This document shows, in pieces, positions 15,811-41,766 of a stretch of 64,000 bases of DNA (position 1 is the first letter of the stretch; each line of letters opens with the position of its first letter). The position numbers and the translations under genes are program-made. The notes below the pieces were generated by a model, which was not told where the DNA came from, ran no database searches, and saw nothing but the letters and a program-made list of their open reading frames with translations. Source of the DNA: Liolophura sinensis. Lineage: Eukaryota > Mollusca > Polyplacophora > Chitonida > Chitonidae. The stretch is from the NCBI RefSeq assembly GCF_032854445.1, contig NC_088295.1:53923249-53987248 (forward strand), in the 5' to 3' direction.

Positions 15811-18800
15811 CTGCAATATGCGTAATACAAAAATTATGACAGTTATTAGGTAAGTATTAACATGCATGTTACTCTGCACACACTGTAATGCATCACTTTT
15901 CTGAGTAATTTCTTAACCCTGGGCGACGGGAAAGGGTATATGGCCAGGTACGGCAGAGATACCTGCTCTACATGTGCTTCTCTTCAAATATATGTGGTCC
16001 ATACTTACTGATAGGCCATGAAAACAAAATGAGTATAAGAAGGAATGATGTCACACTGAGATTTTTCGGTGGCATCTCATTTAAAATGGCTATATGTATG
16101 CCACAAAAAAAAACAAAAAAACAAAAGAAAACACAACTTGCAATTCAAATCTCTTATTATTTAAAACACCATGAGTTATTTTATATCCTACAAGAATGCT
16201 GTTATGATTACCAGTCTATCATAGACAATAAACATAAGCCATGGTTGTGATCTTGCCTGCACTATCAAAGGTACCAGTCGTCCTGGATTGAATTCCGTAG
16301 AAAGAAAAAAATAATAATCTCTCAGGAGACCCACCCTGAGTTTGTTTATCCTCTGAAGATCCACTTTGAGCACGTATTCTTGGTCAGCGTGTACTGGTAT
16401 CCAATCACTGTCTGGTCGCACACCACCTACATCAGACAACAGACAACAAAGAAACAATTATTTCACATGGAAATTTTCTACACATATATACAACTGTAAA
16501 AAAAAGTTGTTCAATAAGAGGCTCTTCAAGCCTCTTTGTCAACTCTTTCATAACTGCTTATGTTTGTTTATCTCTATGTAATAAAGTTGACACTGAGTTA
16601 TTTGTTTATAGTTCCGGTGTGTGAGACTAAAGGGAGACAACTCTGGTATGGATTACCTCTGTAATCCTGGTTGACATGTTTGGTTTCCAGGCTTCCTCCT
16701 TCAGCCCACCAACCTTGCACTGACAAAGACATCTCTATCTGAGGCAGTCTACCAAGCACCTGGTAAATCTACAACAAAAGCAATTTGGTCAATGGATGGC
16801 CATTTTATCTAAAACTTCTGAAATTGTCCTAAATTCACCATCTTGTGATCCATTGGGCCCAGGCCATGCACAACAGCATAATTGCGCTCTTCTTTTACCA
16901 TAGCATTCTGAACGGTGCATTAGCTGTGGTTAATAGCTTTCCATACTCGCACCCTATGTTACTATTACTTCACGACGAGACAAATCTGAGTAGCAATCCG
17001 AGTGACACGACCCTGTACCCATCCTATAACCTTCTGTCAAAATGTTCAGCATTGATTCAATGTCAAGCTTGAGAAAACTTGATTTGTACACACCAGGATG
17101 GAAGTCTGAAGTGATATATGATTACAATGTGTCAGGTGAGCATGACATTTAGAATTTTGTGCCTAACAAATTTTGTCTGGTTTTTCAGGGAGAAAAACCT
17201 AAACCTGATATGCTAAATGCACATTCATTTATAGATGTGTCGGAACAAACACATGGTTATCTGCTGATAATTGAAACTTTGACTAGCTGCGTATCACATA
17301 TATTTAACAGTTTACTACATATCTACATGCTTTACATGTGCATATCAATCTGCACCTTATCATAGGCCGTTCCAGAAATCCCATATCTGCCAATTCTCCA
17401 CTCCCACATTTTACTGTGAACACATTAGCCTAGCCCTGTGTTTTATTCTCATTCACTGTTATCTTATGTGGTTACTTGCAACTGGGATGAATTTCCACTG
17501 ATTCACCGCCGTTCGAGTCCAAAAACACCTTGTTTACTTGCGCGGACTGCAAACTCCTTATAGCCAACACCCTCATAACCACATGGCAGTCCACTGACTT
17601 CAGCAAAGAAGTGAACATAACATTACATTGTAGTTGTGTTTACGGGTCTAAGTTATAACAGGAAGATGTCAGAGAACGATACTTAATATGTAGTGAGGGC
17701 TTATAGTTTTATGAAGTGGAAAATCATTCAATATCTAATTTCTGAAGGCAAACTTGGCACAGTCACTTGTGGCAGAGGTCGTATCTGTCACTGAAAGGTA
17801 ACCAAGAGCAGTTTGTGTGTGATAGCTACAGCCCTGACAAATGGTTCGAATCGGCCAATCAGGAAACATGATGTAAAACTATTTATTTGATGTTTCGGTG
17901 TTTTACGCCGTACTCAAGAATACTTCACTTATCTGATGGCGGCCAGAATTATGGTGGGTGGAAACCAGCCAGAGCCCGAAACCAGCCAGAACCCATGACC
18001 ATCCGCAGGTTGCTGCCACACCTTCCCATGTACGGCCCCAGAGGAAGCTAGCATGAGCTGGACTTGAACTCATAGTGACTGCAGTGGTGAGAGGCTCCCG
18101 GGCCTTTATGCTGCGCTAACCAACTGAGCCACTAAAACTCTGTTGAAATGACCACTTGGCACAATATCTTTCCTATATCTTGTACTCAGAAACGTCAATA
18201 GAATGGTAATGCTAACACTTCTTATAATGAAACAACCTCATGAAGTATGGTCAAGAGTATATAGAGGCAGTTACACAACTGAATATCTCAAAATCTTTTC
18301 ATGGACCTCTAAATTACTAAGAGTTTAAGACAAAATGACTGGTGTCAACAAACTGGGGGCAGATATCACTGCACAATGTCTGTATTGGAGACAGGAGGGT
18401 TTTTTTGTTGTTGTTGTTGTTTTTTTGTTTTTTGTGGTGCATTCATGTACACTGGGGCTTTGTACCTGGTCAATTTGTGTCCTGCTGAGGTTTTCCTCTA
18501 GCATGGCCTGTAGAACATCAAAGCGACCATCACATACGGCCATCAGCTCAGGTAGACTCTGTACAGACACACGCTCCTTACCCGCACCACCTGACCTACT
18601 CGCAGACCTGCAGACAAACAACCAATATAACCATCAACTGTGTCTTAATCATACAGGAAATAATAAAACAAGGAAATCACACCTACCTCTTACCTCATAA
18701 TCCTGCCCTTAAGATTACATTAAGTAATATACATGTACATGCAGGTTTATAGGGGGAAGAAAAACAGGTGAAAAAGACACCGTAACTCCTCTGTTCCAGT

Positions 18801-21800
18801 CTGAGTCATATACTGCAAACTTCCTACAGTGGTAAGTGTGGTGCACCCATCCCAGCCTCCCCTGCCCTAACTGTTTCTTTGGGGAATTAGTGGTGATAAG
18901 CAGAAAAGAACACCCATAAAATAATTTACATACCCTAATTTTTCTAATTTTTGGGACACCTGATCTGTTTTTTTTTTCAGCCAATATACATTGCAGCAGT
19001 AATATTTACTTTCTTTTTTTTTCACATGGTTAGCCCACAACATATTCATATACAAAACACTGGGAGAGAAATGTAACTTTTAGCTTTTAGCATTAGTAAT
19101 ATCTGTCCTAAAGTAAGAAGAATTAGGGTAGTCTTACATGACATGTTCATTGGAGATCACTTGAGGTAGTGTCAGCAGGGAGGAGTCATCAAGCCTGTGT
19201 CACAGTACCACTTGAGGAGTGAGGAGATCCCAGACACATGCCAGACTTACCTTAAACAATGGACATGGTATGTGAGGACATGAGGGAGTGTCAGCAGGGA
19301 GGAGTCATCAAGCCTGTGTCACAGTACCACTTGAGGAGTGAGGAGATCCCAGACACATGCCAGACTTACCTTAAACAATGGACATGGTATGTGAGGACAT
19401 GAGGGAGTGTCAGTAGGGAGGAGTCATCAAGCCTGTGTCACAGTACCACCAGAGTTGTGAGGAGATTCCAGGACACAAGCCAGACTTACCTTAAACAATG
19501 GACATGGTATGTGAGGACATGAGGGAGTGTCAGTAGGGAGGAGTCATGAAGCCTGTGTCACAGTACCACCAGAGGTGTGAGGAGATTCCAGGACACAAGC
19601 CAGACTTACCTTAAACAATGGACATGGTATGTGAGGACATGAGGTAGTGTCAGTAGGGAGGAGTCATGCAGCCGATGTCCCTGTACCACCAAAGGTGTGA
19701 GGAGATCCCAGACACGAGCCAGACTTACCTTAAACAATGGACATGGTATGTGAGGACATGAGGGAGTGTCAGTAGGGAGGAGTCATGAAGCGTGTGTCAC
19801 AGTACCACCAGAGGAGTCAGGAGATCCCAGGCACAAGCCAGACTTACGTTAAACAATGGACATGGTATGTGAGGACGTGAGGTAGTGTCAGTAGGGAGGA
19901 GTCATGAAGCCTGTGTCACAGTACCACCAGAGTTGTGAGGAGATCCCAGGACACAAGCCAGACTTACGTTAAACAATGGACATGGTATGTGAGGACGTGA
20001 GGTAGTGTCAGTAGGGAGGAGTCATGAAGCCTGTGTCACAGTACCACTTGAGGAGTGAGGAGATCCCAGAAACATGCCAGACTTACCGTAAACAATGGAC
20101 ATGGTATGTGAGGACATGAGGGAGTGTCAGCAGGGAGGAGTCATGGAGCCAGCGCCCTTGTACAACCATCTGTATCAGGTGTATAACTTGCAGTCCGGTA
20201 ACCAGCCATCCTTGGTCAGCAGAAACATCCAGCATGGCCTGTCCAAATTGATTACAGATATAATAATTGTGTGGTATCTGTGATTTATTACCCTGAAGGA
20301 TATATCCTCATATCATACATTGTCACTGATTCAACACATTCTGGCCAAATCTCTGCAATTTCCCTTCACCAATCTACCTAGTACATGCACACTAATATGC
20401 ACTCCTTAGTGAGGGGGGTTCTATGTACTATTAAAAAAAACAACACTTTATTTGTTTTTTTATCACAAAAATAAAAAGTGTCTTTTTGTTTCCTGTTTTA
20501 AGACTTCTGACCAAACCCATCTAGCTTGGCAGGAGCATTAGACAGTTTGGATATATATTAAAGCAACAATTCACTGACACCATGGTAACTCCTATAACAA
20601 TCTGGGGTTTGAGCATCCTTATTCCAGACAAGCATGTTTTAAAAAAAACATGCACTGTACTAAGAAATGTTTGGTTAAGACCACAGTTTTTACCAGGAAA
20701 TGACGGAGCAGGAAAAAGAACCTTGAGGGAAAACAGGTCAAGGTTAATGACAATATCAATGGTACCTGGCAGATCCTGATGGCTTGGTCCAGCACTGACT
20801 TGGTGTCAGTCTGGTAGTCTGTGGAGGGTAGGCTGATTTGACTGAAATGGGCCTGGAGCAGCAGGTGGGTCTTGGTGTTAGATGAGTCATACGAGTGAGG
20901 GTTAACCTTTAGAGGTAGCTGCTGAGCAAGTTCACTGCCAACACACAGATTGTAATCAGCAATTAACACACAGAACACCATCTCTCAGGATTTCCAAGAC
21001 ATTTCAAGACATAAAACACTACCAGCATATAACTTTGAAAACAGTTTGAATAGGCATTAATCTTGTTGATTGGATTGGTGTTTATCGCCGTACACAAGAA
21101 TTTTTCATTTATAACATAGCACAGTCCAGATGCTTGACCCGATTGACATGTAAGGTCAAGTACACATCACTGCCATTACTTCCGATGTAGCGTTCTCATG
21201 TGATGTGGCAAATCACTCTTTAAATCATGACACCCTCGTTTTCGCAAACAGGTCAGCAACATGGCCGTACAGCGTACAGCTATTTATATTATCATTATCA
21301 AATCCATCCACCTGTGATCCAAATTTGACCTTCAAACAAACACAAGTCTGTTGTGCATTAGCAAAGTAACAAATGTAGAATTTAATTTCTTTCATCCCAA
21401 ACAGGTGAATTGTTTGAACTGAAGGTTAATGTGTTTGGACAACATTCATGTATCAGCCAACAGGATGCAGAAAATCTCTCATTTTCGAAATTATTCCTTG
21501 TCTAAAGAAGAAAAAACTGTCTCAATTACAACTGTTGGAGTTGTCATGGTTGTGTTGCCTGTCATGTTCACGTAGGCCTAAATATGGTTCTCATTCCTGT
21601 GTGAAACCAAGAAGGGATTCACTTAATGTGTAAAGGAGGTGCCATCACCAAGCATAGGTCCTACCATGCATAGTTAGGATTTCTGACAAGCTTCTGACAG
21701 GAGAATTCTCACAGAATTGCACTCTCCCTAGCAGTTGAAACTTTTGAATTCAGCGTAACTGCCCTGAGAATGTCTCAACCAATGAAATGTCACCAAGCTA

Positions 21801-24259
21801 AGCAATGGAGGTAACCAGTACTGCACCCTATGTAACTAGAACAGGGGAGGTAACAGGGGTCCAGGTAATGGACTAAAAGATAGCATTGAGTTTTGCGGGT
21901 GCAAAAACCAAAACAGTCAGAAATAAGCGACAAGTTTTGTCAAGCAAATGATGAAGTTTCCTACATCTGAGGTCAGGATTTTCACACCCAAAAGGAGACA
22001 CCAGACATGAAAGGCATGTTATACCAAAATTTCTTGTAACATCAACAGTCTTGTACTCTCGACTGCTTTCTGCCACCCAGGCCCAAGATCCACATTAAAT
22101 ATTCATGCAGCCATTACATGTACCCGAATCATTGTAGACTGGTCATTTCTCTAAGGAAAACCTTGTCACCTTTTATTTGTGAATCACCCACCTGTTTATC
22201 TGATCTTCATTGTGCCTCACAGGAAGGTCTGCATACTCATGGGCACTCTGTTGAACAATGGTAGATTTGACTCATGAGAAGTTTACAGGAACAATGATTT
22301 AACTCTGGGCTAGAATCATCATAATAAAGAATAGACAGGTATATAAATTTCAATGTTAAAAAAAAAAAAACCTTGGTATAATACACATGTACAAATCTAT
22401 CAACACAAGTATAAAATTTAATGTCATCCATACATATAAACTATAAAATTACATTATTCAATTTTCTGGTTTCCTTGAAGCAGAAAGGTAAATTATTGAT
22501 CAGATATAAAAATCTCAAAAACAAAATGAAAACGAATTTAGAAATCAAGGTAATGTAGTTCACATTAAAGGAGCTAGTGAACATTTCCCTCTGTGTCCAA
22601 GTCATCTTGACGAGAGCCATATTCGAAGTGAAAACTACAAAGTTTTTCACATGAAAGAATGTAAGTGAAGGCTGCACCATTATCTTATCATCAGCTTTGG
22701 AGAAGTTCAAGAACGCAACCTAACATTACACTCCATGGCATTGCTAAATATTTTACTTTTACAGAGGAGGTATGGTTTTGTATCATGCAAGAAACTAGTC
22801 ATAACTCCCAGGAAATTAAAGCAAATATCAAGTATTTTTAGGACAGGCAAAGACTGTTTTTCCTTGTGTGGCTTCCCTCTGCACTGTTTTCATGTTATTC
22901 CAGGTCTGACATGCTTATGCAGGACTTTCACAAAACACCATATCTGACATATTTCCTTAGACAAACTTCCTTATATACAGTACATCATACCCTTGATATT
23001 CACTTGTAAGCCAACTGGTAAGATCCTAGAGATGTAACATAGAAAATATCAACTAAAGAATATGTTGGTGTTAAAAAAAATCTACCATACAAAAAAAATG
23101 TGCCATACTGTGTTTCTCAACACTTTCTCACCTCACACAGCAAGTTGGACTTGAAACGAAAAGATGAATGCTAGATGGTTTTCAATCTACCAATAATTAC
23201 TTTTCAACACTTGCACATAAAACACAAACAAAATAAACAGAAGTGAAAACGTGCACTACAGATCTTGAGGGTGGCCCTGTCGGCCAACCAAGCAACACTG
23301 CAGGCATGAAACAGGCAGCCATGCTCCGTAGCAAGACCTGTGAAGCATTGATTTTTATGCTTTATTGTTAATCTTCTTTATCCTACAATGAATTGCTGAA
23401 TGCCGTGGCATGATACCTGCCCTGTCAAACCTAACACTTCTAGACTACCAATGCTCAGGAACTTGTACACTTATCAACAAGTAAAACAATATTACTACAT
23501 GCACTGCTCAGTGGGTAGTGTAGGCCTCAGAAGATGAATAACTTCATATTTCTAAATTTGGTCAGAGTTAATCAATAAAATAAAAGGTCCTGCAGGTGGT
23601 ATTATGAAGATGTTTATATTCTCCTTTGTTAGGTCTTGTGATGACTTCACACAGTGACAACTTACAGACAAGATGTCCAGTACTTTTGGTACATCCTGGT
23701 CGCAGTTGCTTGTAGAACAAGCTCAGAGTCAGGTCATATCCTACAGGATGTGATACAGTGAGAACTTACAGACAGGATGTCCAGTACTTCTGGGAGGGTA
23801 CACTCTGGTCGCAGTTGCTCATGGAACATGCGCAGGGTGAGGTGATTCAGGTAGTAATAAGAGGAGATTCTGCCCAGGGTGGCTGGCTGTACCTCCAGAT
23901 TATCCTGCCAACAAGCACAACGAAATAAATCATGGACGCACCCACATAATTCGTACACCTACATGTAAAACCTTTTTCTGAAAGGTCGGATGATATTCTC
24001 TTTTAAAAAAATGTAAGTTTCATCAAGAAATTTATATGTTATGACCTTTATTTGCCTCTAGAAATGTACCTTTGTGCATAATGTCATATTTATCCGCTCA
24101 CGCTTACCTCCCCTATCTGCAGACAGTAAGAATCCGCTCATGCTTACCTCCCCTATCTGCAGACAGTAAGACTGTTGCAGTGTGATGAGGGCCTGTTCCA
24201 CCAGTGAGGACAGGAACTTGTTGATGCTGTCATAATCTGTACTGTCCAGGTTGTAGTAG
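15493..24259 (-). CDS. ASCC3: ASCC3 helicase, C-terminal nine exons (partial)
   Basis: ASCC3 is a large Ski2-like 3'-5' helicase with two helicase cassettes. It unwinds alkylated DNA with ALKBH3 and splits collided ribosomes in the ribosome quality control trigger complex. Exons 24148-24259, 23770-23904, 22192-22247, 20766-20934, 20087-20238, 18466-18607, 16657-16759, 16335-16426 and 15493-15810 splice with consistent phases into about 426 residues. These cover the C-terminal Sec63-type domain. Landmarks are YYNLDSTDYD, GRISSYYYLNHLTLRMF, DLPVRHNEDQINSELA, THLLLQAHFSQISLPSTDYQ, AMLDVSADQGWLVT, VHADQEYVLKVDLQR, PRFPKPKDEGWFLVLGE and YTLYLMSDCYLGLDQQYD. Helicase motifs lie in upstream exons not found in the window. 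The last-exon wording (KDEGWFLVLGE) separates it from the paralogue SNRNP200. Confidence 0.95.
16335..16426 (-). CDS. ASCC3: ASCC3 exon encoding GVRPDSDWIPVHADQEYVLK..
   Basis: 92 bp, acceptor GATGTAG|GTGGTG, donor CTCAGG|GTGGGT. Contains the conserved VHADQEYVLKVDLQR. Ends in phase 0. Confidence 0.92.
16657..16759 (-). CDS. ASCC3: ASCC3 exon encoding VLGRLPQIEMSLSVQGWW..
   Basis: 103 bp, acceptor TACCAG|GTGCTT, donor ACAGAG|GTAATC. 34 codons plus one base. Start of the terminal immunoglobulin-like part of the Sec63 domain. Confidence 0.88.
17886..18141 (-). mobile_element. SINE family 2, nearly complete
   Basis: TTTTACGCCGTACTCAAGAA at the left, CTAACCAACTGAGCCACTA at the right. In the ASCC3 intron between exons 18466 and 16759, with a small internal duplication of CCAGCCAGA.CCC. 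Confidence 0.9.
18466..18607 (-). CDS. ASCC3: ASCC3 exon encoding SASRSGGAGKE..RTQIDQ
   Basis: 142 bp, acceptor TCTGCAG|GTCTGC, donor GACCAG|GTACAA. Contains SLPELMAVCDG and QAMLEENLS. The leading base G completes the Arg codon CG+G from the exon at 20087. Confidence 0.9.
19140..20086 (-). repeat. 120-bp intronic tandem array copied from an ASCC3 exon end and its splice donor
   Basis: About eight 119-120 bp units end to end with the exon at 20087-20238. Read on the minus strand each unit equals the last 80 or so bases of that exon (CATGACTCCTCCCTACTGAC onward), a donor AAG|GTAAGT, and about 38 bases of intron. Donor-like sites stand near 19250, 19370, 19490, 19610, 19729, 19847 and 19967. 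The leftmost unit is partial. Confidence 0.92.
20087..20238 (-). CDS. ASCC3: ASCC3 exon encoding AMLDVSADQGWLVT..TYHVHCL
   Basis: 152 bp, acceptor GGACAG|GCCATG, donor TTTACG|GTAAGT. Its last 80 or so bases and the first part of the intron are the founder of the adjoining 120-bp tandem array. Confidence 0.93.
20766..20934 (-). CDS. ASCC3: ASCC3 exon encoding ELAQQLPLKVNPHSYD..IRICQ
   Basis: 169 bp, acceptor TTGGCAG|TGAACT, donor TGCCAG|GTACCA. Contains THLLLQAHFSQI and DTKSVLDQAIRICQ. Ends in phase 0. Confidence 0.94.
21071..21114 (-). mobile_element. SINE family 2 tail fragment
   Basis: GATTGGATTGGTGTTTATCG then CCGTACACAAGAATTTTTCA; 5' part absent. Confidence 0.7.
22192..22247 (-). CDS. 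ASCC3: ASCC3 exon encoding AHEYADLPVRHNEDQIN
   Basis: 56 bp. Acceptor CAACAG|AGTGCC, donor AACAG|GTGGGT. The final AG plus T of the next exon gives Ser, producing the conserved NSEL junction. Confidence 0.92.
23645..23758 (-). repeat. Decayed duplicate of an ASCC3 exon 3' half and donor
   Basis: About 100 bp similar to 23757-23860, offset 104 bp. CTTACAGACA, GATGTCCAGTACTT and CTGGTCGCAGTTGCT are shared. The TCT|GTAAGT donor is kept but the coding part has indels. Confidence 0.8.
23770..23904 (-). CDS. ASCC3: ASCC3 exon encoding DNLEVQP..LDILS
   Basis: 45 codons, phase 0 at both ends. Acceptor TTGGCAG|GATAAT, donor TCT|GTAAGT. Contains the conserved GRISSYYYLNH. A decayed copy of its 3' half plus donor lies 104 bp downstream in the intron (about 23650-23752). 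Confidence 0.94.
24100..24180 (-). repeat. 40-bp tandem duplication spanning an ASCC3 splice donor
   Basis: Two almost identical 40-bp copies (plus-strand CGCTTACCTCCCCTATCTGC in one, one base different in the other). Each holds the last 23 exon bases and a GTAAGC donor. The exon-proximal donor keeps the reading frame. Confidence 0.9.
24148..24259 (-). CDS. ASCC3: ASCC3 exon encoding YYNLDSTDYD..IGE
   Basis: Acceptor TTTTTTCAG|CTACTA, donor GGGGAG|GTAAGC. One base plus 37 codons. The donor region is duplicated: a second copy of the last 23 exon bases and the donor lies 40 bp further on (alternative end 24108). Using it would add 40 nt with no stop but shift the frame. Confidence 0.93.
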
Positions 24260-24589
24260 CTGAAAAAACAAAACAGAGACCATCACCTAGACATCATGCT
24301 AATTTTATATCCAGGGGCATGCCACATTCTTTGATGTGACTGTCACAGAGCAATTAAGCATGTTCAAATCTTGTCACTGTAACATCCTGAGGGTGGTGGG
24401 GTGGTGGGGGGGGGAGGGGTTCATAGTTATTTAAAGCTTGGCACACATGGGAGCTTAGACCATGACTCAACAAGTTGTACAGAGCTGGCACTAGGACTGA
24501 TTCACCTGCATACACATAACAACTGCAGTACAACTCCAATTAGGTCATGTTGTTATTTCTCAGTTCTCTTGTGTCATGCTTAAGTTACA

Positions 24590-26700
24590 TGTAATTAACT
24601 TTCACTGACATAGACATAAAGGTGAGGGCTTCATCCCAGTCTGAACCTCACATAGAGAGAGCTCATACTCCCTTCAGTAGCAATATAAATGCAAGTACCT
24701 TTCACTGACATGGACATACAAGGTGAGGGTTCAATCCCAGTCTGAACCTCACATAGGGAGAGCTCATATTCCCTCCAGTAGCAATATACATGTAATTACC
24801 TTTCACTGACACAGACATACAAGGTGAGGGTTCAATCCCAGTCTGAACCTCACATAGGGAGAGCTCATATTCCTTCCAGTATCAATATACATGTGATTAC
24901 CTTTCACTGACACAGACATACAAGGTGAGGGTTTAATCCCAGTCTGAACCTCAAATAGAGAGGGCTCATACTCCCTTCAGTAGCAATATACATGTAATTA
25001 CCTTTCACTAACACGGACATACAAGGTGAGGGTTCAATCCCAGTCTGAACCTCACATAGGGAGAGCTCATATTCCCTCCAGTAGCAATATACATGTAATT
25101 ACCTTTCACTATACAAGGGGAGGGTTCAATCCCAGTCTGAACCTCACACAGAGAGCGAGCTCATACTCTCTTCAGTAGCAATATACATGTAATTACCTTT
25201 CACTGACATAGACATACAAGGTGAGGGTTTAATCCCAGTCTGAACCTCACATAGAGAGAGCTCATACTCCCTCCAGTAGCAATATACATGTAATTACCTT
25301 TCACTGACACAGACATACAAGGTGAGGGTTCAATCCCAGTCTGAACCTCACATAGGGAGAGCTCATATTCCCTCCAGTAACAATATACATGTAATTACCT
25401 TTCACTGACATAGACATACAAGGGGAGGGTTCCATCCCAGTCTGAACCTCACATAGGGAGAGCTCATATTCCCTCCAGTAGCAATATACATGTAATTACC
25501 TTTCAATGACATAGACATACAAGGTGAGGGTTCAATCCCAGTCTGAACCTCACATAGAGAGAGCTCATACTCCCTTCAGTAGCAATATACATGTAATTAC
25601 CTTTCACTAACATGGACATACAAGGGGAGGGTTCAATCCCAGTCTGAACCTCACATAGGGAGATCTCATACTCCCTCCAGTAGCAATATACATGTAATTA
25701 CCTTTCACTGACACAGACATACAAGGTGAGGGTTCAATCCCAGTCTGAACCTCACATAGGGAGAGCTCATATTCCCTCCAGTAACAATATACATGTAATT
25801 ACCTTTCACTGACACAGACATACAAGGTGAGGGTTTAATCCCAATCTGAACCTCACACAGAGAGAGCTCATATTCCCTCCAGTAACAATATACATGTAAT
25901 TACCTTTCACTGACATAGACATACAAGGTTAGGGTTCAATCCCAGTCTCAACCTCACACAGAAAGAGCTCATATTCCCTCCAGTAGCAATATACATGTAA
26001 TTACCTTTCACTGACATAGACATACAAGGGGAGGGTTCAATCCCAGTCTGAACCTCACATAGGGAGAGCTCATATTCCCTCCAGTAGCAATATACATGTA
26101 ATTACCTTTCACTGACATAGACATACAAGGGGAGGGTTCAATCCCAGTCTGAACCTCACATAGGGAGAGCTCATATTCCCTCCAGTAACAATATACATGT
26201 AATTACCTTTCACTGACACAGACATACAAGGGGAGGGTTCAATCCCAGTCTGAACCTCACATAGGGAGAGCTCACACTCTCTTCAGTAGCAATATACATG
26301 TAATTACCTTTCACTGACACAGACATACAAGGGGAGGGTTCAATCCCAGTCTGAACCTCACATAGGGAGAGCTCATATTCCCTCCAGTAGCAATATACAT
26401 GTAATTACCTTTCACTGACATAGACATACAAGGGGAGGGTTCAATCCCAGTCTGAACCTCACATAGAGAGAGCTCATACTCCCTCCAGTAACAATATACA
26501 TGTAATTACCTTTCACTGACATAGACATACAAGGTGAGGGTTTAATCCCAGTCTGAACCTCACACAGAAAGAGCTCATACTCTCTTCAGTAGCAATATAC
26601 ATGTAATTACCTTTCACTGACACAGACATACAAGGTGAGGGTTCAGTCCCAGTCTGAACCTCACATAGGGAGATCTCATACTCCCTCCAGTAGCGATGTA
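24590..26700. repeat. 101-bp minisatellite, about 21 copies
   Basis: Unit runs from AATATACATGTAATTACC to CCTCCAGTAGC. Variation between units is only a few per cent, for example GACACAGAC against GACATAGAC. Each unit carries GGGTTCAATCCC, close to a Pol III B-box, with no clear A-box. It lies about 330 bp beyond the leftmost-read ASCC3 exon. ORFs across it are artefacts. Confidence 0.93.
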
Positions 26701-34700: not shown

Positions 34701-37700
34701 CCTTGAAAATCTTACATGTAAATGTACAGGTCAACTGATTATTCATCTCATACTGTGATGTACTTAATTTTTGCGCGGAACTAATTTTCGCGGATTTAGC
34801 GATGAACAGTTTACCGAAAAATTAATTCCAACATAAAAATTTTCTATTACAATAAATATAATGTATAATGGTAGTAGCATTACTGCACTCAGACACTTTG
34901 AGACAAAGAAATGCAATCAGGTACAGTCACAGCACTTTTATTCGTGAAATAAGCACAGAATTTTTTTCTCGATGACAGACATAGCAAACTGGATATTTAA
35001 CATTTCTACATGTAAAAAAAGCGACTGAAATCCTATAAACAACATACAATCCAGCTTTAGCAAATCTGGACTGGATCATCCCTCGTCTTTTACTGATCTC
35101 CAACCACCTGGCGTGAAAGGGCTTAATAATGGAAGTTCAGGTGTCCACTACAGTTGATTGCCCACTGGAGCCCCATTATGAAAGAACATATTATAGGGAA
35201 GATGAAGGCTACGTTTCAGCGAAATCAGCACAATAGTTATGGGAGGGGATGCATGGACAAAATCTGAATACATGGAAAGCACAATTATGCCATGTCCTAA
35301 ATGAGGGTAATCATAAAAATAACAATAATTATGAAAATAATACCCCAATTGCGACTAAACTTCAGCATGCAACAAGTTCAGATTATAGACAAGATGTATG
35401 GTAAGTTTCATCAAAGTGGGCGCAGTAGTTTGGGAGGAGGTGTATCCTCACCCAACCTCAAAGAGGGAGGTAGAAATAATTGGTAGAAATAAGGTTCCCT
35501 GCAGCGGTGATGTCAATAATGAGAACTGTAAAAAGGATTCCAGCACAGCACATTGTAAACAAAAAACCATGAACAGGTGCTCATGTGGTTTTCATTTTTT
35601 ATTTTATTTATTTTTGTTGTGAAAAGAGCCATTGTACATAAAGTTATACATGTGGATCAGATAAAGTGGACAGTTACCACTGGCTAATTGACACAATTAA
35701 ATAGGCACTTATTGGTTGGAGCTGAGCTTGGGAAATTTGAGGGCTGGAGGAGTGCATCAATCTGCCAGTGTATACCCAAGATCAGAAGGTTACAGGGGTT
35801 GGGTACCTACTGTAGACAATAGGTAACTGCTTACCTTTGATGTTCATTGTACAAAACAGTTTGGCAAATACAAATTATATCAAAGTGAAAATATGGGATT
35901 GTATTATCAATTAGGTATCCCTCCCCTCCGCAAGCTATGGAAAGGCAGAATTTCATGGTCATACAGGACAAAAACATATATTCTACAGTAACGCAAACAT
36001 GAGGGTTAAGCAATGTTTAAAGAGTATTAAAAACAAGAAACAATATATAATTACTTATTTTACAACAGGAGTGAAAATACCTAAATAGCCATAGCTATTT
36101 TGTTTTAAGTTGGTTGGTAACTTTTTAAATTAACTTTTAATCTGGAATTTTTACTAGGCCACAGGATGTGCTCATCTACCTACATGTAAGAGACAAATAA
36201 GCATCCGTGCGACGTCAGTGGAAATGTAGGTGCATTCAAGTTATGGAAATATCTCACTTCTGGTTGGCTAAGATTGATAACAAGGCAGTGCTTTAGATTT
36301 TCTCAATGTGCACGATTGTGATTACTTTAAACTGCAATATAGACTTTAAACTGCAATATAGACTCCATGTGAGGTACTTAATACGTACATACATTTGGTC
36401 TCCTCGTGTTGTCTTTTCTTTTACCTCAGCTACATGTATATTTTGTTTATAACAGAGATAATGGACCTATGTGGTGATGAGGCTTGGAATTTAACATCAC
36501 CCACACACCTGGGTGACTTCTCTTCAGTGTCTGTAGACCGCATCAAGAACTGTGCATGTATGGTGCAAGGGGGATCACATCAGCTAATAGCTGTGGATGT
36601 GGCAATGCCTCAAACTACCAAAAACAACTGTCCCAGTGCTTCTGTCAAGGTGGTCTGGAGTTCGAGTGATGGTGGTACAAACAGGTCACAGATAATCATA
36701 AAAGAATCAGAAGCATTCACAAATCAATACCTGGTGAACAATTCGGACATCACTTGGATCTACTACACCAGAAACTGCACCAGGATAACACAACGTGTGT
36801 GGTTTAAACTACAGCCAGGTAGGTCCATGTATACTTAATATACATATTTGATAACTAGCAGACCATGATATATACAGTATAACCATGAGTCTGCCAACAG
36901 AATATGTCACTGTCAATCATTCCAAAGGTAAATCTTTATCCACATTTCATCAAGTTCCACCTTTCTGCTGATTTCAAGTTTTCAAAATGGCTGCCGTCTT
37001 TTGTCTGTTAGGACGCTGGATACTTGGTTATCCTAGTTCCCGGGCCTCATAAATGCCCAGTCAAGGGGCCCAGGAACGCAGAAGGTGTATATGATGGGCA
37101 GCCACTTCTGTGAGGTTTAAGTGAGCACAGAAGCTGAAATTTAATATTTTTTTTATTTATTTATTTATTTTATTGGTGTTTTACCCTGTACTCAAGAATA
37201 TTTCACTTATACAACAGCGGCCAGTCGGTGGAAGGAAATCAGGCAGAGCCTAGGGGAAACCCACAACGATCGGTAGGTTGCTAGCAGACCTTCCCACGCA
37301 CAGCCGGAGAGGAAGCCAGCATGAGCTGGACTTGAACTCACACCAACCACATTGTACATTATATTGCACTGTGTTGGCGTGCAACCCCCTTGACCATGAA
37401 GGCCCATCTGAAATTTAATAAATATGAATGGATATTTACCTTTGGGATGATTAACAGCTCAAGATTTTAACACTCAATCTGGTGGTCTAAGACCCTATGC
37501 ATTGTAAACGAAGTAAGCGGACATCCTGGGGAGGTCAACTGTTTTCAGAAACTTTACAATCATCCTATGGAGGTGAATGGGAGAAGCCAAGACTATTCAA
37601 AACCAGTTCAAGTACAAAAAAGTGAACACAGTCATCCAGGGCTAAATGGTGAAGCCAAAACTTCATAAAGCATTTTTTTCGTAAGAACATGATGTCTTCA

Positions 37701-40700
37701 AAAATGCTTCTCACCACTGCACAATGAGGTGATGGTTATGTTATAAAGAAAAGAAACTATTTAACAATAAGACTAAATGGTGAGAAGAAATACTGTATTT
37801 AGAAAGAACAATAATATGCAATGTACTAAGAACATAAAAACAGTCGCAGGATATGCTGTGTTTACAAGGCCACAGGGGCAAAGGTCAGACCTTCAAAAAT
37901 ATGCTAAGGTCATGAAAAACATTAACAAAATTTAAACATGTGATTAAGTTTGTCACAAAATATAACCTCAATGGCCCCAATAGCTATGGAAATATAGAAT
38001 TTGATAACTCAATAAATAGTGTTCTTGTCATTGCCTAATCAAGTGTGGTACAGGATGGGTAAACATTGCTAAATGTATTACAAAAATTGAGTGTTTACAA
38101 AAGTATAGACTGAGAAACAGATGGAGAGAAGACTAAGCAGATTCACAGATGGATGCCAAACAACAGGATAATACCCCAAGCCCAAGTTTGGGCGAGGAGT
38201 ATAAAACACACTGAGTGTTATTCAAACATGTGAACTGTGCGTTTGTAGAATGTTATGGTTTCTCTTTCTGACAGTCAACAGATCTCAAGCAACAATTTAC
38301 TGTGGAAAATCTATACCTAACAGCACTCACATAACACCAACGCTGGTGACCCAATCTTCAAATACAACTCCCGAACGGACCATTCCCTCCAATGTCACCA
38401 GCCAAACAACCATGACAAGCATAACAGAACCAAGTGAGAATGCCACCACTGTCAACGACACCAGCTCCATGACCAATTCTACAACATGGCCACCTGTTAC
38501 AACAGAGAACCAAACTGAAATGTCACCAACTCCTTCACCAATGAGCAGCACTGCAGTCACCGCAAACTCAACTTCAAATTCTTCAGCTGTGAACGACCCC
38601 ACTTTCAACACAGACAGTTCATCACAAGGTATTTTATTTATTTATTTATTTGATTGGTGTTTTATGCTGTACTCAAGAATATTTCACTTATACAACAGCA
38701 GCCAATATTAAGGTGGGAGCATCACAAGGTATTTATACTTCATTCTCATACCCATTACTTATGATGTCTACATATAAACAGATAAGTATTAATTTGTTTA
38801 ACATAACATAGTACAATATTTTCTTTTAAGATCATGCAGCCATTTTTATTCACTACAATGTGATCATACAGATTGCACAACAGAATCATCTGAAGTTTGT
38901 TTTAATGCCAAAAACTGTTTCAACTCAACTGAAAATGACTTACAAAATACATTTGTCTTACTGAAATATTCATTCCCTTGCAGTTGAAGTAATCGTAGGC
39001 TCAGTGATTGGTGCATTTTTTGCTGTTGTCATAGCAGTGGTGCTTGTCATCGTTCTCTACAGGTAAACTCCTCTCTACAGTGCTTACATGTCTGCTCGAC
39101 ACAAATGTCACCGGCTTTGGTTGACCAATCACAATACAATGTTGTTGGGCAAATCCATATTACAGGTCAGGCCAGGCTGGATACTTCAACACAGAACTCT
39201 ACTTCAATGTCAACTAACCATTTCCATATCCACAAAAACTAAATATCTAAATCTAGCTGACACTATGATCCTAGCCTTTCATCTCATCAATGTCTTAAAT
39301 ACCACAAACTGTATTACAATGTACATACTAGGATCTGAGTTTTAATAGAATTTCATGACATATATCACAAACTCAGGAATTTATTGACATAACTCTGGCT
39401 GGCCCAGTCTGGTTGAATGCAACCTGCACTTGAACCTATAAGGTTGTGTGTTTAAAAACCAACTCCCACCAGTTTATCATGGACTTAATGTCAACAAAGA
39501 CTTTCGCCTAACAATCAGAACATGTGTCTGGTGCTATCTTTAACACTAAGTAGAAATATACCTTTTGCATAATTTCAGGTGTCTTATTTATAGCTCTGAT
39601 TTGTTCTTAAACAGACGGCACAAAAGCAGAAAATACACAAAATCCCATCATCCACTAAGCAATGGGGCAAACACAGCCAGATATGAGAATACCTCTGCGG
39701 ATCTCCCACTTGTGGCCATGGGTCCGTCTCCACACACAACAGGCTATGACCACATAGCAGCAGTTGGCACTGTCCAGGGTGATGACAACAGTGGCATGTA
39801 CAACAATACTGGAAATGTCTACAACCATACCCTGGACGAGGAAGAGTATGACCATATACAGACTGTTGCCACAGTCCACCCATCCAGAGCAATTCACCGC
39901 AAGCAACCAGATGACACCTATAACAACTTGTATGAAGGCCATAACAGCACTGTCCAGCTTAACGGTTTGTCAGAAAGTACCACTGACATGAACGACCATA
40001 ATTCTGCTGCCAATGACATTTATTCACAAATACAAGACAAGCCTCAGTCAGAACAACCTGGAAGTGACACCATACTTCATAAAAGCCATGAAGAAACAAA
40101 AGAAGAGTTTGTGGAGAATGACTTGTACCAAAGTGTAGATGAATGTGAAACAGACCAAAGCCCCACCCAACATGCCCGGGGAGGACAGGGGCTACACTCC
40201 TATCATGTTTTGGAAAAGGACTTTGGTTCGAGGGTTCCAGAAAATCCCCCTCATTCAGCTGACAAGGATGTCTATAAAGATGAGACACCTTCCTCAACTC
40301 CTCATAAAAGCCATGACCTAACAAACGAGGAAACAGAGTTTGTGGAGAATGATTTGTATCAAAGTGTAGACCAATGTGACACAGACAAAAGCATCACCCA
40401 ACATGCCCGGGGAAGAATGGGGCTACGCTCCTATCATGTTTTGGAAAAGGACTTTGGTTCGAGGGTTCCAGAAAATCCCCCTCATTCAGCTGACAAGGAT
40501 GTCTATAAAGATGAGACACCTTCCTCAACTCCACATAAAAGCCATGACCTAACAAACGAGGAAACAGAGTTTGTGGAGAATGATTTGTATCAAAGTGTAG
40601 ACCAATGTGACACAGACAAAAGCATCACCCAACATGCCCGGGGAAGAATGGGGCTACGCTCCTATCATGTTTTGGAAAAGGACTTTGGTTCGAGGGTTCC

Positions 40701-41766
40701 AGAAAATCCCCCTCATTCAGCTGACAAGGATGTCTATAAAGATGAGACACCTTCCTCAACTCCACATAAAAGCCATGACCTAACAAACGAGGAAACAGAG
40801 TTTGTGGAGAATGATTTGTATCAAAGTGTAGACCAACGTGACACAGACAAAAGCCCCACCCAACATGCCCAGGGAGGACAGGGGCTACGCTCCTATCATG
40901 TTTTGGAAAAGGACTTTGGTTCGAGGGTTCCAGAAAATCCCCCTCATTCAGCTGACAAGGATGTCTATAAAGATGAGACACCTTCCTCAACTCCACATAA
41001 AAGCCATGACCTAACAAACGAGGAAACAGAGTTTGTGGAGAATGATTTGTATCAAAGTGTAGACCAATGTGACACAGACAAAAGCATCACCCAACATGCC
41101 CGGGGAAGAATGGGGCTACGCTCCTATCATGTTTTGGAAAAGGACTTTGGTTCGAGGGTTCCAGAAAATCCCCCTCATTCAGCTGACAAGGATGTCTATA
41201 AAGATGAGACACCTTCCTCAACTCCTCATAAAAGCCATGACCTAACAAACGAGGAAACAGAGTTTGTGGAGAATGATTTGTATCAAAGTGTAGACCAATG
41301 TGACACAGACAAAAGCATCACCCAACATGCCCGGGGAAGACTGGGGCTACGCTCCTATCATGCTTTGGAAAAGGACTTTGGTTCGAGGGTTCCAGAAAAT
41401 CCCCCTCATTCAGCTGACAAGGATGTCTATAAAGATGAGACACCTTCCTCAACTCCTCATAAAAGCCATGACCTAACAAACGAGGAAACAGAGTTTGTGG
41501 AGAATGATTTGTATCAAAGTGTAGACCAATGTGACACAGACAAAAGCATCACCCAACATGCCCGGGGAAGACTGAGGCTACGCTCCTATCATGTTTTGGA
41601 AAAGGACTTTGGTTCGAGGGTTCCAGAAAATCCCCCTCATTCAGCTGACAAGGATGTCTATAAAGATGAGACACCTTCCTCAACTCCTCATAAAAGCCAT
41701 GACCTAACAAACGAGGAAACAGAGTTTGTGGAGAATGATTTGTACCAAAGTGCTGATCAACTCTAA
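31561..41766 (+). CDS. Lectin-type transmembrane receptor with repeat-expanded tyrosine tail (5' end missing)
   Basis: Predicted single-pass surface receptor; I do not recognise a named orthologue. Exons are 31561-31761 (donor uncertain), 31793-31903, 36456-36818, 38275-38628, 38984-39062 and 39615-41766. All internal extracellular junctions are phase 1, as in shuffled extracellular modules. Order: SUEL-type galactose-binding lectin domain, 120-residue CUB-like module, Thr/Ser-rich stalk with about ten N-glycosylation sequons, a 21-residue membrane helix, RRHKSRK stop-transfer, then a 716-residue tail. The tail has nine tyrosines in a unique region and seven 77-residue repeats with three tyrosines each. 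The first visible exon starts in mid-codon, so a signal-peptide exon must lie further left, but I could not place it. The tail suggests SH2-dependent signalling; ligand unknown. Confidence 0.82.
31793..31903 (+). CDS. Receptor exon B: C-terminal half of SUEL lectin domain
   Basis: Follows a branch-point-like GACTAAC and T-rich tract ending CAG at 31792; donor GAAG|GTAAGT. Encodes CSSIHNSCSPVIKRV and HCSTYNYFLANYTCVE. The spacing of 13 residues between the SC and HC cysteines and the C-TYNYF-YTC ending match the SUEL/latrophilin lectin pattern. Ends in phase 1. Confidence 0.75.
33035..33860 (-). pseudogene. Possible decayed coding fragment, unidentified
   Basis: Open for 110 codons on the minus strand (33035-33367, including KNLPKESLPYTRRTLM and LPLEIVPLSHNHSF). 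Coding-like sequence continues upstream in shifted frames with stops (for example VFHPEGCLIDLKILAL then stop). Lies in the long receptor intron, antisense to it. No family recognised; a decayed retrocopy or transposon gene is a guess. Confidence 0.3.
36456..36818 (+). CDS. Receptor exon C: CUB-like extracellular module
   Basis: Acceptor TAACAG|AGATAA, donor GCCAG|GTAGGT, phase 1 to phase 1. Encodes LCGDEAWNLTSPTHL at its start and ends RITQRVWFKLQPG. It has five cysteines and several N-glycosylation sequons. Length (120 aa) and the CG...SP start resemble a degenerate CUB domain; this is inference. Confidence 0.78.
37145..37407 (-). mobile_element. SINE family 2, diverged full-length
   Basis: T-rich left end, GGTGTTTTACCCTGTACTCA, and a right end TGACCATGAAGGCCC where the tRNA head has decayed. 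In the receptor intron after exon C. Confidence 0.88.
38275..38628 (+). CDS. Receptor exon D: mucin-like Thr/Ser-rich stalk
   Basis: Acceptor CTGACAG|TCAACA, donor CACAAG|GTATTT. About 117 residues, mostly Thr, Ser, Asn and Pro, with about ten N-X-S/T sequons (for example NST, NTT, NVT, NAT, NDT). Predicted heavily O- and N-glycosylated. The donor lies inside a target-site duplication of a SINE fragment that starts six bases past it. Confidence 0.82.
38635..38719 (-). mobile_element. SINE family 2 fragment inserted at a splice donor
   Basis: 85-bp tail fragment flanked by perfect CATCACAAGGTATTT copies at 38620-38634 and 38720-38734. The duplicated target contains the exon D donor, so a second donor now lies at 38729. 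Confidence 0.9.
38984..39062 (+). CDS. Receptor exon E: transmembrane helix
   Basis: Acceptor CCTTGCAG|TTGAAG, donor TACAG|GTAAAC. Encodes VEVIVGSVIGAFFAVV and IAVVLVIVLYR, an uninterrupted hydrophobic helix with glycines near its start. Ends in phase 2. Confidence 0.88.
39615..41766 (+). CDS. Receptor exon F: cytoplasmic tail with 7 x 77-aa tyrosine repeats, and stop
   Basis: Acceptor TTAAACAG|ACGGCA completes an Arg codon; the single exon runs 717 codons to TAA at 41764. The unique part has tyrosines in ARYENT, GYDHIAA, GMYNNT, EEYDHIQ, DTYNNLYEG and NDIYSQI. YENT, YNNT and YNNL fit a pYxN Grb2-type pattern. Repeats then carry NDLYQSVD, RSYHVLEKDF and KDVYKDE. Total tail tyrosines are 31. 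An eighth partial repeat ends LYQSADQL. Antisense ORFs over this exon are by-products of the repeat. Confidence 0.9.
40105..41763 (+). repeat. 231-bp coding tandem repeat (7 copies plus partial eighth)
   Basis: Period is exactly 231 bp (77 codons); for example the same CAGAG lies at 40334 and 40565. Copies are nearly identical in DNA, including third positions, apart from the first. Variants: SPTQHA with GGQG in copies 1 and 4, SITQHA with GRMG in 2, 3 and 5, GRLG in 6 with YHAL instead of YHVL, GRLR in 7. Confidence 0.95.

Follow-up and report, generated by a model that had tools for sequence, protein, structure and literature searches.

The stretch of DNA analysed here (the window, 64,000 nucleotides of contig NC_088295.1 of the chiton Liolophura sinensis, positions 53,923,249 to 53,987,248) carries on its minus strand a part of the gene ASCC3, in which the 3' end of one coding exon, together with its 5' splice site (donor), forms the beginning of a minisatellite that extends into the following intron. 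The species was published as L. japonica, a name later corrected to L. sinensis (PMC12441733), and its assembly was built from HiFi reads at 14X coverage, with a mean length of 8.3 kb (PMC11068029). The exon matches PDB chain 8alz_B (E 1.3e-16), and a hand-joined peptide that includes the neighbouring ASCC3 exons matches the same chain with an E value of 1e-87, and the gene is ASCC3, as named in an initial annotation of this DNA. A spliced model of the gene was made from the human protein. Of its 31 junctions, which extend over 104 kb, 29 entered the analysis; the other two were discarded, an exon being apparently missing there. Coordinates above 64000 refer to the window continued into L007-L010.

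The exon runs into the tandem array through the junction TTTACG/GTAAGT (the slash marks the boundary between exon and intron), and Tandem Repeats Finder (TRF) reports the array with a period of 119, 8.3 copies and 93% matches, that is, with units of minisatellite size (119-120 bp). Each complete copy consists of the last 62 nucleotides of the exon, a GTAAGT donor and about 57 nucleotides of intron. GTAAGT is kept in all seven further complete copies, which are followed by a truncated one (Table 1), and the spacings between successive donors, starting from the real one at 20086, are 119, 120, 119, 119, 120, 120 and 119. The initial annotation had thus correctly described about seven further donor-bearing repeats at this spacing, a unit composed partly of exon and partly of intron, and a series of donors directly behind the real one. 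It also called these donors competing, which goes further than the sequence shows. Its statement that the 3' end of the exon is amplified holds for the exon end itself, the extent being limited to the last ~64 nucleotides, with the remainder of the exon outside the array. When the assembly was searched at the DNA level with the whole array, a single locus was matched (the search skips very common words and covered one assembly).

Table 1. Window coordinates of the ASCC3 exons, donors and boundary repeats
Feature	Position	Strand	Remarks
ASCC3 coding exon	20087..20238	-	152 nt, phase 2 at its end; the exon part of the first copy is its last ~64 nt; assigned by 8alz_B match and spliced model
Real donor GTAAGT (ACG/GTAAGT)	20081..20086	-	open frame stops here, in-frame UAA next
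Tandem array across the exon-intron boundary, 8.3 copies of 119-120 bp	19162..20150	-	TRF score 1643
Copy 2, exon part	19968..20029	-	donor 19967, AAC/GTAAGT, weaker
Copy 3, exon part	19848..19909	-	donor 19847, AAC/GTAAGT, weaker
Copy 4, exon part	19729..19790	-	donor 19728, AAG/GTAAGT; preceding AG lost
Copy 5, exon part	19610..19671	-	donor 19609, AAG/GTAAGT; preceding AG lost
Copy 6, exon part	19490..19551	-	donor 19489, AAG/GTAAGT
Copy 7, exon part	19370..19431	-	donor 19369, AAG/GTAAGT
Copy 8, exon part	19251..19312	-	donor 19250, AAG/GTAAGT
Ninth copy, truncated, without donor	19162..19193	-	
Candidate 71-nt frameshifting (poison) exon in the array	19610..19680	-	predicted; percentiles: acceptor 75th, donor 98th
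Next ASCC3 exon	18466..18607	-	acceptor is the top-scoring AG of the intron, 96th percentile
Second ASCC3 boundary duplication	24092..24171	-	unit contains donor GAG/GTAAGC and the preceding 24 nt of the exon that ends at 24148; 40 bp x 2
Diverged copy of exon 3' end and donor, exon ending at 23770	23651..23737	-	from alignment; score 63 against a control maximum of 28

The reading frame points to one way of splicing across this array. Joining 20086 to the acceptor at 18607 yields an open, ASCC3-like frame, and this acceptor scores 12.3, a value matched by only 0.13% of the 6,329 AGs in the region, under a position weight matrix (PWM) trained on 53 donors and 51 acceptors (including 21 donors and 21 acceptors at myosin boundaries set by rule). 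Translation of the product of the second donor gives an arginine and then a stop (R*) at once, and donors 3-8, as deduced from the sequence, would likewise meet a UAA at once if no new acceptor is used. Without an extra acceptor, therefore, only the first donor is predicted to be compatible with coding, and since the use of a later donor gives an immediate UAA, selection should disfavour the later donors. Most likely, the copies are removed inside one intron of 1,479 bases. The array would have arisen by tandem duplication of a segment of ~119 bp straddling the exon end and its donor, presumably through slippage or unequal exchange, with later expansion; splicing would join 20086 to 18607, so that the seven donors further downstream are removed as part of the intron, and the array, putatively without function, would persist because donor copies downstream of the real donor stay intronic. 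This arrangement, in which seven extra donors are spliced out with the intron and serve no purpose, very probably describes the locus, and it corresponds to the donor side of what has been called a 'mirage' minisatellite in lancelets.

The same kind of duplication recurs within ASCC3. When 45 nucleotides around each of the 29 modelled donors were compared by alignment with the intron that follows (searched to a depth of up to 3 kb), with reversed introns and other introns as controls, four donors scored between 63 and 85 (20086, 24147, 23769 and 102620), against control maxima of 23 and 28, respectively; the junction at 20086 gave the value of 85. Three further ASCC3 donors, searched over 1.5 kb, have no copies, which brings the count to 4/32. 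The largest of these arrays lies past the window, at 101471-102692 (L010 7471-8692), where the real donor 102620 is followed by 13 copies, making 14 CAG/GTATGA donors at spacings of 80-102 bp in which shorter and longer units are mixed. On the acceptor side, one of 29 ASCC3 acceptors (83246) exceeds its control, with a score of 37 where controls reach at most 27; it is not among the verified copies.

Several observations weigh against so simple a picture of the 20086 array. Strength by itself would not lead one to expect that the first donor alone is used, because five of the seven extra donors outscore it both by U1 pairing (-10.6 against -9.3 kcal/mol) and by PWM, where the real donor stands at the 49th percentile; the two AAC/GTAAGT copies score lower than the real donor (-5.7 kcal/mol). 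The initial annotation had called all these donors consensus-strength, which fits the five AAG/GTAAGT copies (98th percentile of the 53 donors) and not the other two (32nd). Moreover, two AGs score in the range of real acceptors, one inside the array at 19680 (10.0, 75th percentile) and another past it at 19102 (8.3, 53rd percentile). The copies also diverge less in their exon parts (0.038) than in their intron parts (0.096), and the changes in the exon parts are synonymous in five cases and nonsynonymous in one, a bias (P about 0.01, with sites taken as independent and the test picked after the data had been seen) that hints at coding use. Finally, the favoured splicing pattern is itself drawn from the logic of the sequence.

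Coding use would mean that the copies are in-frame cassette exons of 63 nucleotides, each adding a repeat of 21 residues (RLHDSSLLTLPHVLTYHVHCL) to ASCC3. Six of the seven copies are 63 nucleotides long and open, the seventh (19728) lacking the GGCT start used to define the copies; an AG is kept in front of five; and the one copy that was tested (20030-19968) preserves the downstream frame when kept as an exon. This agrees with the synonymous bias (5/6), but the AGs that precede the copies score only 4.4-5.0 (18th-22nd percentile), two of the seven copies have lost theirs, and the contrast in divergence is not peculiar to this array. In the array at 102620 the exon parts also diverge less than the intron parts (0.037 against 0.094, 13 of 14 copies), despite indels in the exon parts of some copies and a count of one synonymous to two nonsynonymous changes (10 of 14 copies compared, four with shifted exon parts being left out). 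Low divergence of the exon parts was accordingly rejected as proof of coding use; since the contrast occurs together with exon-part indels at 102620, we infer that it does not stem from coding copies, but from turnover against a real exon that is under constraint, or from uneven mutation. The cassette reading is therefore regarded as improbable.

An alternative role for the acceptor-like AG at 19680 is as the start of a poison exon of 71 nucleotides; such an exon, or decoy donors, would reduce the output of ASCC3 via nonsense-mediated decay. The acceptor of this candidate is at the 75th percentile and its donor at the 98th, and its inclusion loses the frame and yields stop codons; it exists, however, in only one of the seven copies, where it was created by base changes in that copy, and we consider such a regulation to be very improbable. 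Five of the seven copies also join AAG to GTAAGT, a configuration that could act as a recursive splice site (TTTAAG/GTAAGT), with the intron being removed stepwise, whereas the real junction (ACG) is unable to serve in this way. As acceptors these sites reach only the 16th percentile, and stepwise removal appears more remote still. Coding cassettes, a poison exon and recursive sites are all unlikely and poorly supported. As for the units being produced by a collapse or expansion error of the assembly, the coverage is indeed modest, but the mean HiFi read is much longer than the 1-kb array and the copies differ from each other at 1 to 14 positions, which makes an artefact the least credible of these explanations.

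The differences among copies also bear on the history of the array. In the one haplotype available, the unit at the real boundary differs from the last two units at 5 and 4 positions and from the middle units at 12-14. This closeness of the first unit to the last ones is reminiscent of the pattern of edge and middle turnover described in the work on lancelet globins (PMC3087553). Separately, the end of the exon covered by the repeat (window 20087-20124) reads LPHVLTYHVHCLR, its human ASCC3 counterpart being LPNIENHHLHLFK; its similarity to human ASCC3 is lower than elsewhere in the exon, which gives the impression that turnover of the array has changed the coding end.

Boundary arrays have been found in other genes of the same genome as well. 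Myosin and kinesin loci (30 of each, the best 30 of 81 and of 132 matches, respectively) were searched over 1.5 kb past each domain match, with boundaries placed by a rule close to where the matches end, so that some of them are wrong. One myosin donor (L030) has true tandem copies, 66 bp x 8.1, and one kinesin donor (L061) is repeated as 73 bp in at least 21.6 copies, while a kinesin acceptor (L048, 773-1529) lies in an array of 64 bp x 11.8 whose unit contains GTTGTACAG/GAAGCCATG. Together with those of ASCC3, tandem copies are verified at 6 of the 92 donors tested and at 1 of the 89 acceptors. A further kinesin donor (L072, score 85) was not counted because its boundary was misplaced, the exon probably ending earlier (TMQG/GTAAGTC). 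Also left uncounted were the acceptor L036 (score 53, above its control), where the array adjoins the exon and does not cross it, and the donor L038 (34 against 29), which an array adjoins. In SNRNP200, none of five Sec63 exons has an array within 60 bases; the region contains a 72-bp array with a donor-like motif where no exon was recognised, indicating that the presence of a donor motif within a repeat does not suffice by itself. Another intronic minisatellite, in the window at 24586-26694 (101 bp x 21), has a donor-like AAAG/GTAATT in its unit, and no exon was recognised there.

The frequency of these arrays can be compared with the general density of minisatellites. In the ASCC3 region, TRF arrays (period of at least 10) cover 11,084 of 104,000 bases, and they contain 3 of 32 donors when 3.9 are expected from circular shifts (P 0.68; two of the three hand-added donors in this test were 2-4 bases off) and 0 of 30 acceptors when 3.6 are expected. 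A targeting of arrays to ASCC3 donors was rejected on these counts. Around the 60 myosin and kinesin loci, arrays cover 29,076 of 180,000 flanking bases (16.2%), and by rule they span three donors (L030, L061 and L072; two without L072) and one acceptor (L048); in the SNRNP200 region the coverage is 4.7%, the minisatellite share of the sampled genic sequence being 5-16%. Because arrays fill so much of the genic sequence and the donors of ASCC3 are not hit above chance, boundary arrays seem to be the part that is tolerated in a genome rich in minisatellites. That donors and acceptors differ in this respect is no more than suggestive.

Other features were noted in passing. A gene-like set of frames lies on the plus strand at 36362-41763, within an ASCC3 intron of 57.9 kb; one of these frames (39550-41763, 738 codons) contains 7.1 copies of a coding repeat of 231 bp (77 residues) with many tyrosine motifs, and a Pfam scan of three frames of this interval gave no match above the cut-off. 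Elsewhere in the assembly, seven of eight COX1 matches fall on contig C99 (108,685 bases) at a spacing of ~15.5 kb, as if the mitochondrial genome had been concatenated there. The order of the mitochondrial genes points to Liolophura; a lancelet origin, first suspected from the mirages, was rejected, although a search for the GFP family was uninformative on this point, since it matched nothing here and nothing in its control genomes.

In lancelets, repeats in tandem that cross exon-intron boundaries have been reported as mirage minisatellites in Adh3, TnC, the globins BflGb6 and BflGb9, and PGBD5; regular splicing is reported to be undisturbed there (PMC3087553, PMC3902484), and boundary-spanning minisatellites have been suggested to be possibly general in cephalochordates (PMC3087553). 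As in the chiton, both donor and acceptor sides occur; the chiton arrays differ in being found in a mollusc and in other genes, with up to 14 donors (ASCC3) and at least 21 units (kinesin). For the lancelet arrays, that literature reports or cites work on splicing, copy-number polymorphism and somatic instability, whereas the chiton arrays are known from sequence alone. The view in the initial annotation that a gene boundary in a minisatellite is exceptional was thus overstated, given the lancelet cases and the present sample of 92 donors and 89 acceptors, which holds at least five more cases on the donor side and one on the acceptor side. A search of titles and abstract openings, with most subscription journals outside its coverage, found no mollusc mirage. 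Another example is that of human genes in segmental duplications, in which internal tandem repeats at exon-intron boundaries can likewise change gene structure; these repeats lengthen exons or are tied to new introns in recent paralogues, whereas the chiton copies appear intronic (PMC2812944). In intron gain by tandem duplication, as in the case of potato RdRp (PMC4974935) and the model of PMC3087553, new introns or exons similarly derive from splice signals that have been duplicated, the chiton array being known only as repeat copies. Finally, earthworm metallothionein genes have intronic minisatellites, and one clone carries duplicated fourth exons that are absent from the transcript; the passages considered describe no boundary-spanning array (PMC12783039).

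The chiton ASCC3 array therefore belongs to the known lancelet type of mirages, and what is new is its occurrence in another phylum and its recurrence in the genome; with several boundary arrays in a mollusc, mirages are not special to lancelets. A minisatellite-rich genome may produce such arrays regularly. A broader proposal, which we hold to be unlikely as a whole, is that chiton boundary minisatellites constitute a standing source of splicing variation, in which donor arrays are tolerated because the first donor wins, arrays at acceptors or in coding exons are purged, and copies occasionally become a poison exon, a recursive site or an in-frame repeat exon; if this were true, ASCC3 and other genes would vary in protein or dose among individuals with the number of repeats. 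With up to 14 near-identical donors, a single coding-compatible choice and five decoys in the 20086 array that are stronger than the real site, the chiton arrays naturally dissociate the position of a donor from its strength, so that the choice of a 5' splice site by transcription order, exon context or strength becomes testable in native genes. Boundary arrays would also be raw material for the model of intron gain that was proposed from lancelet globins.
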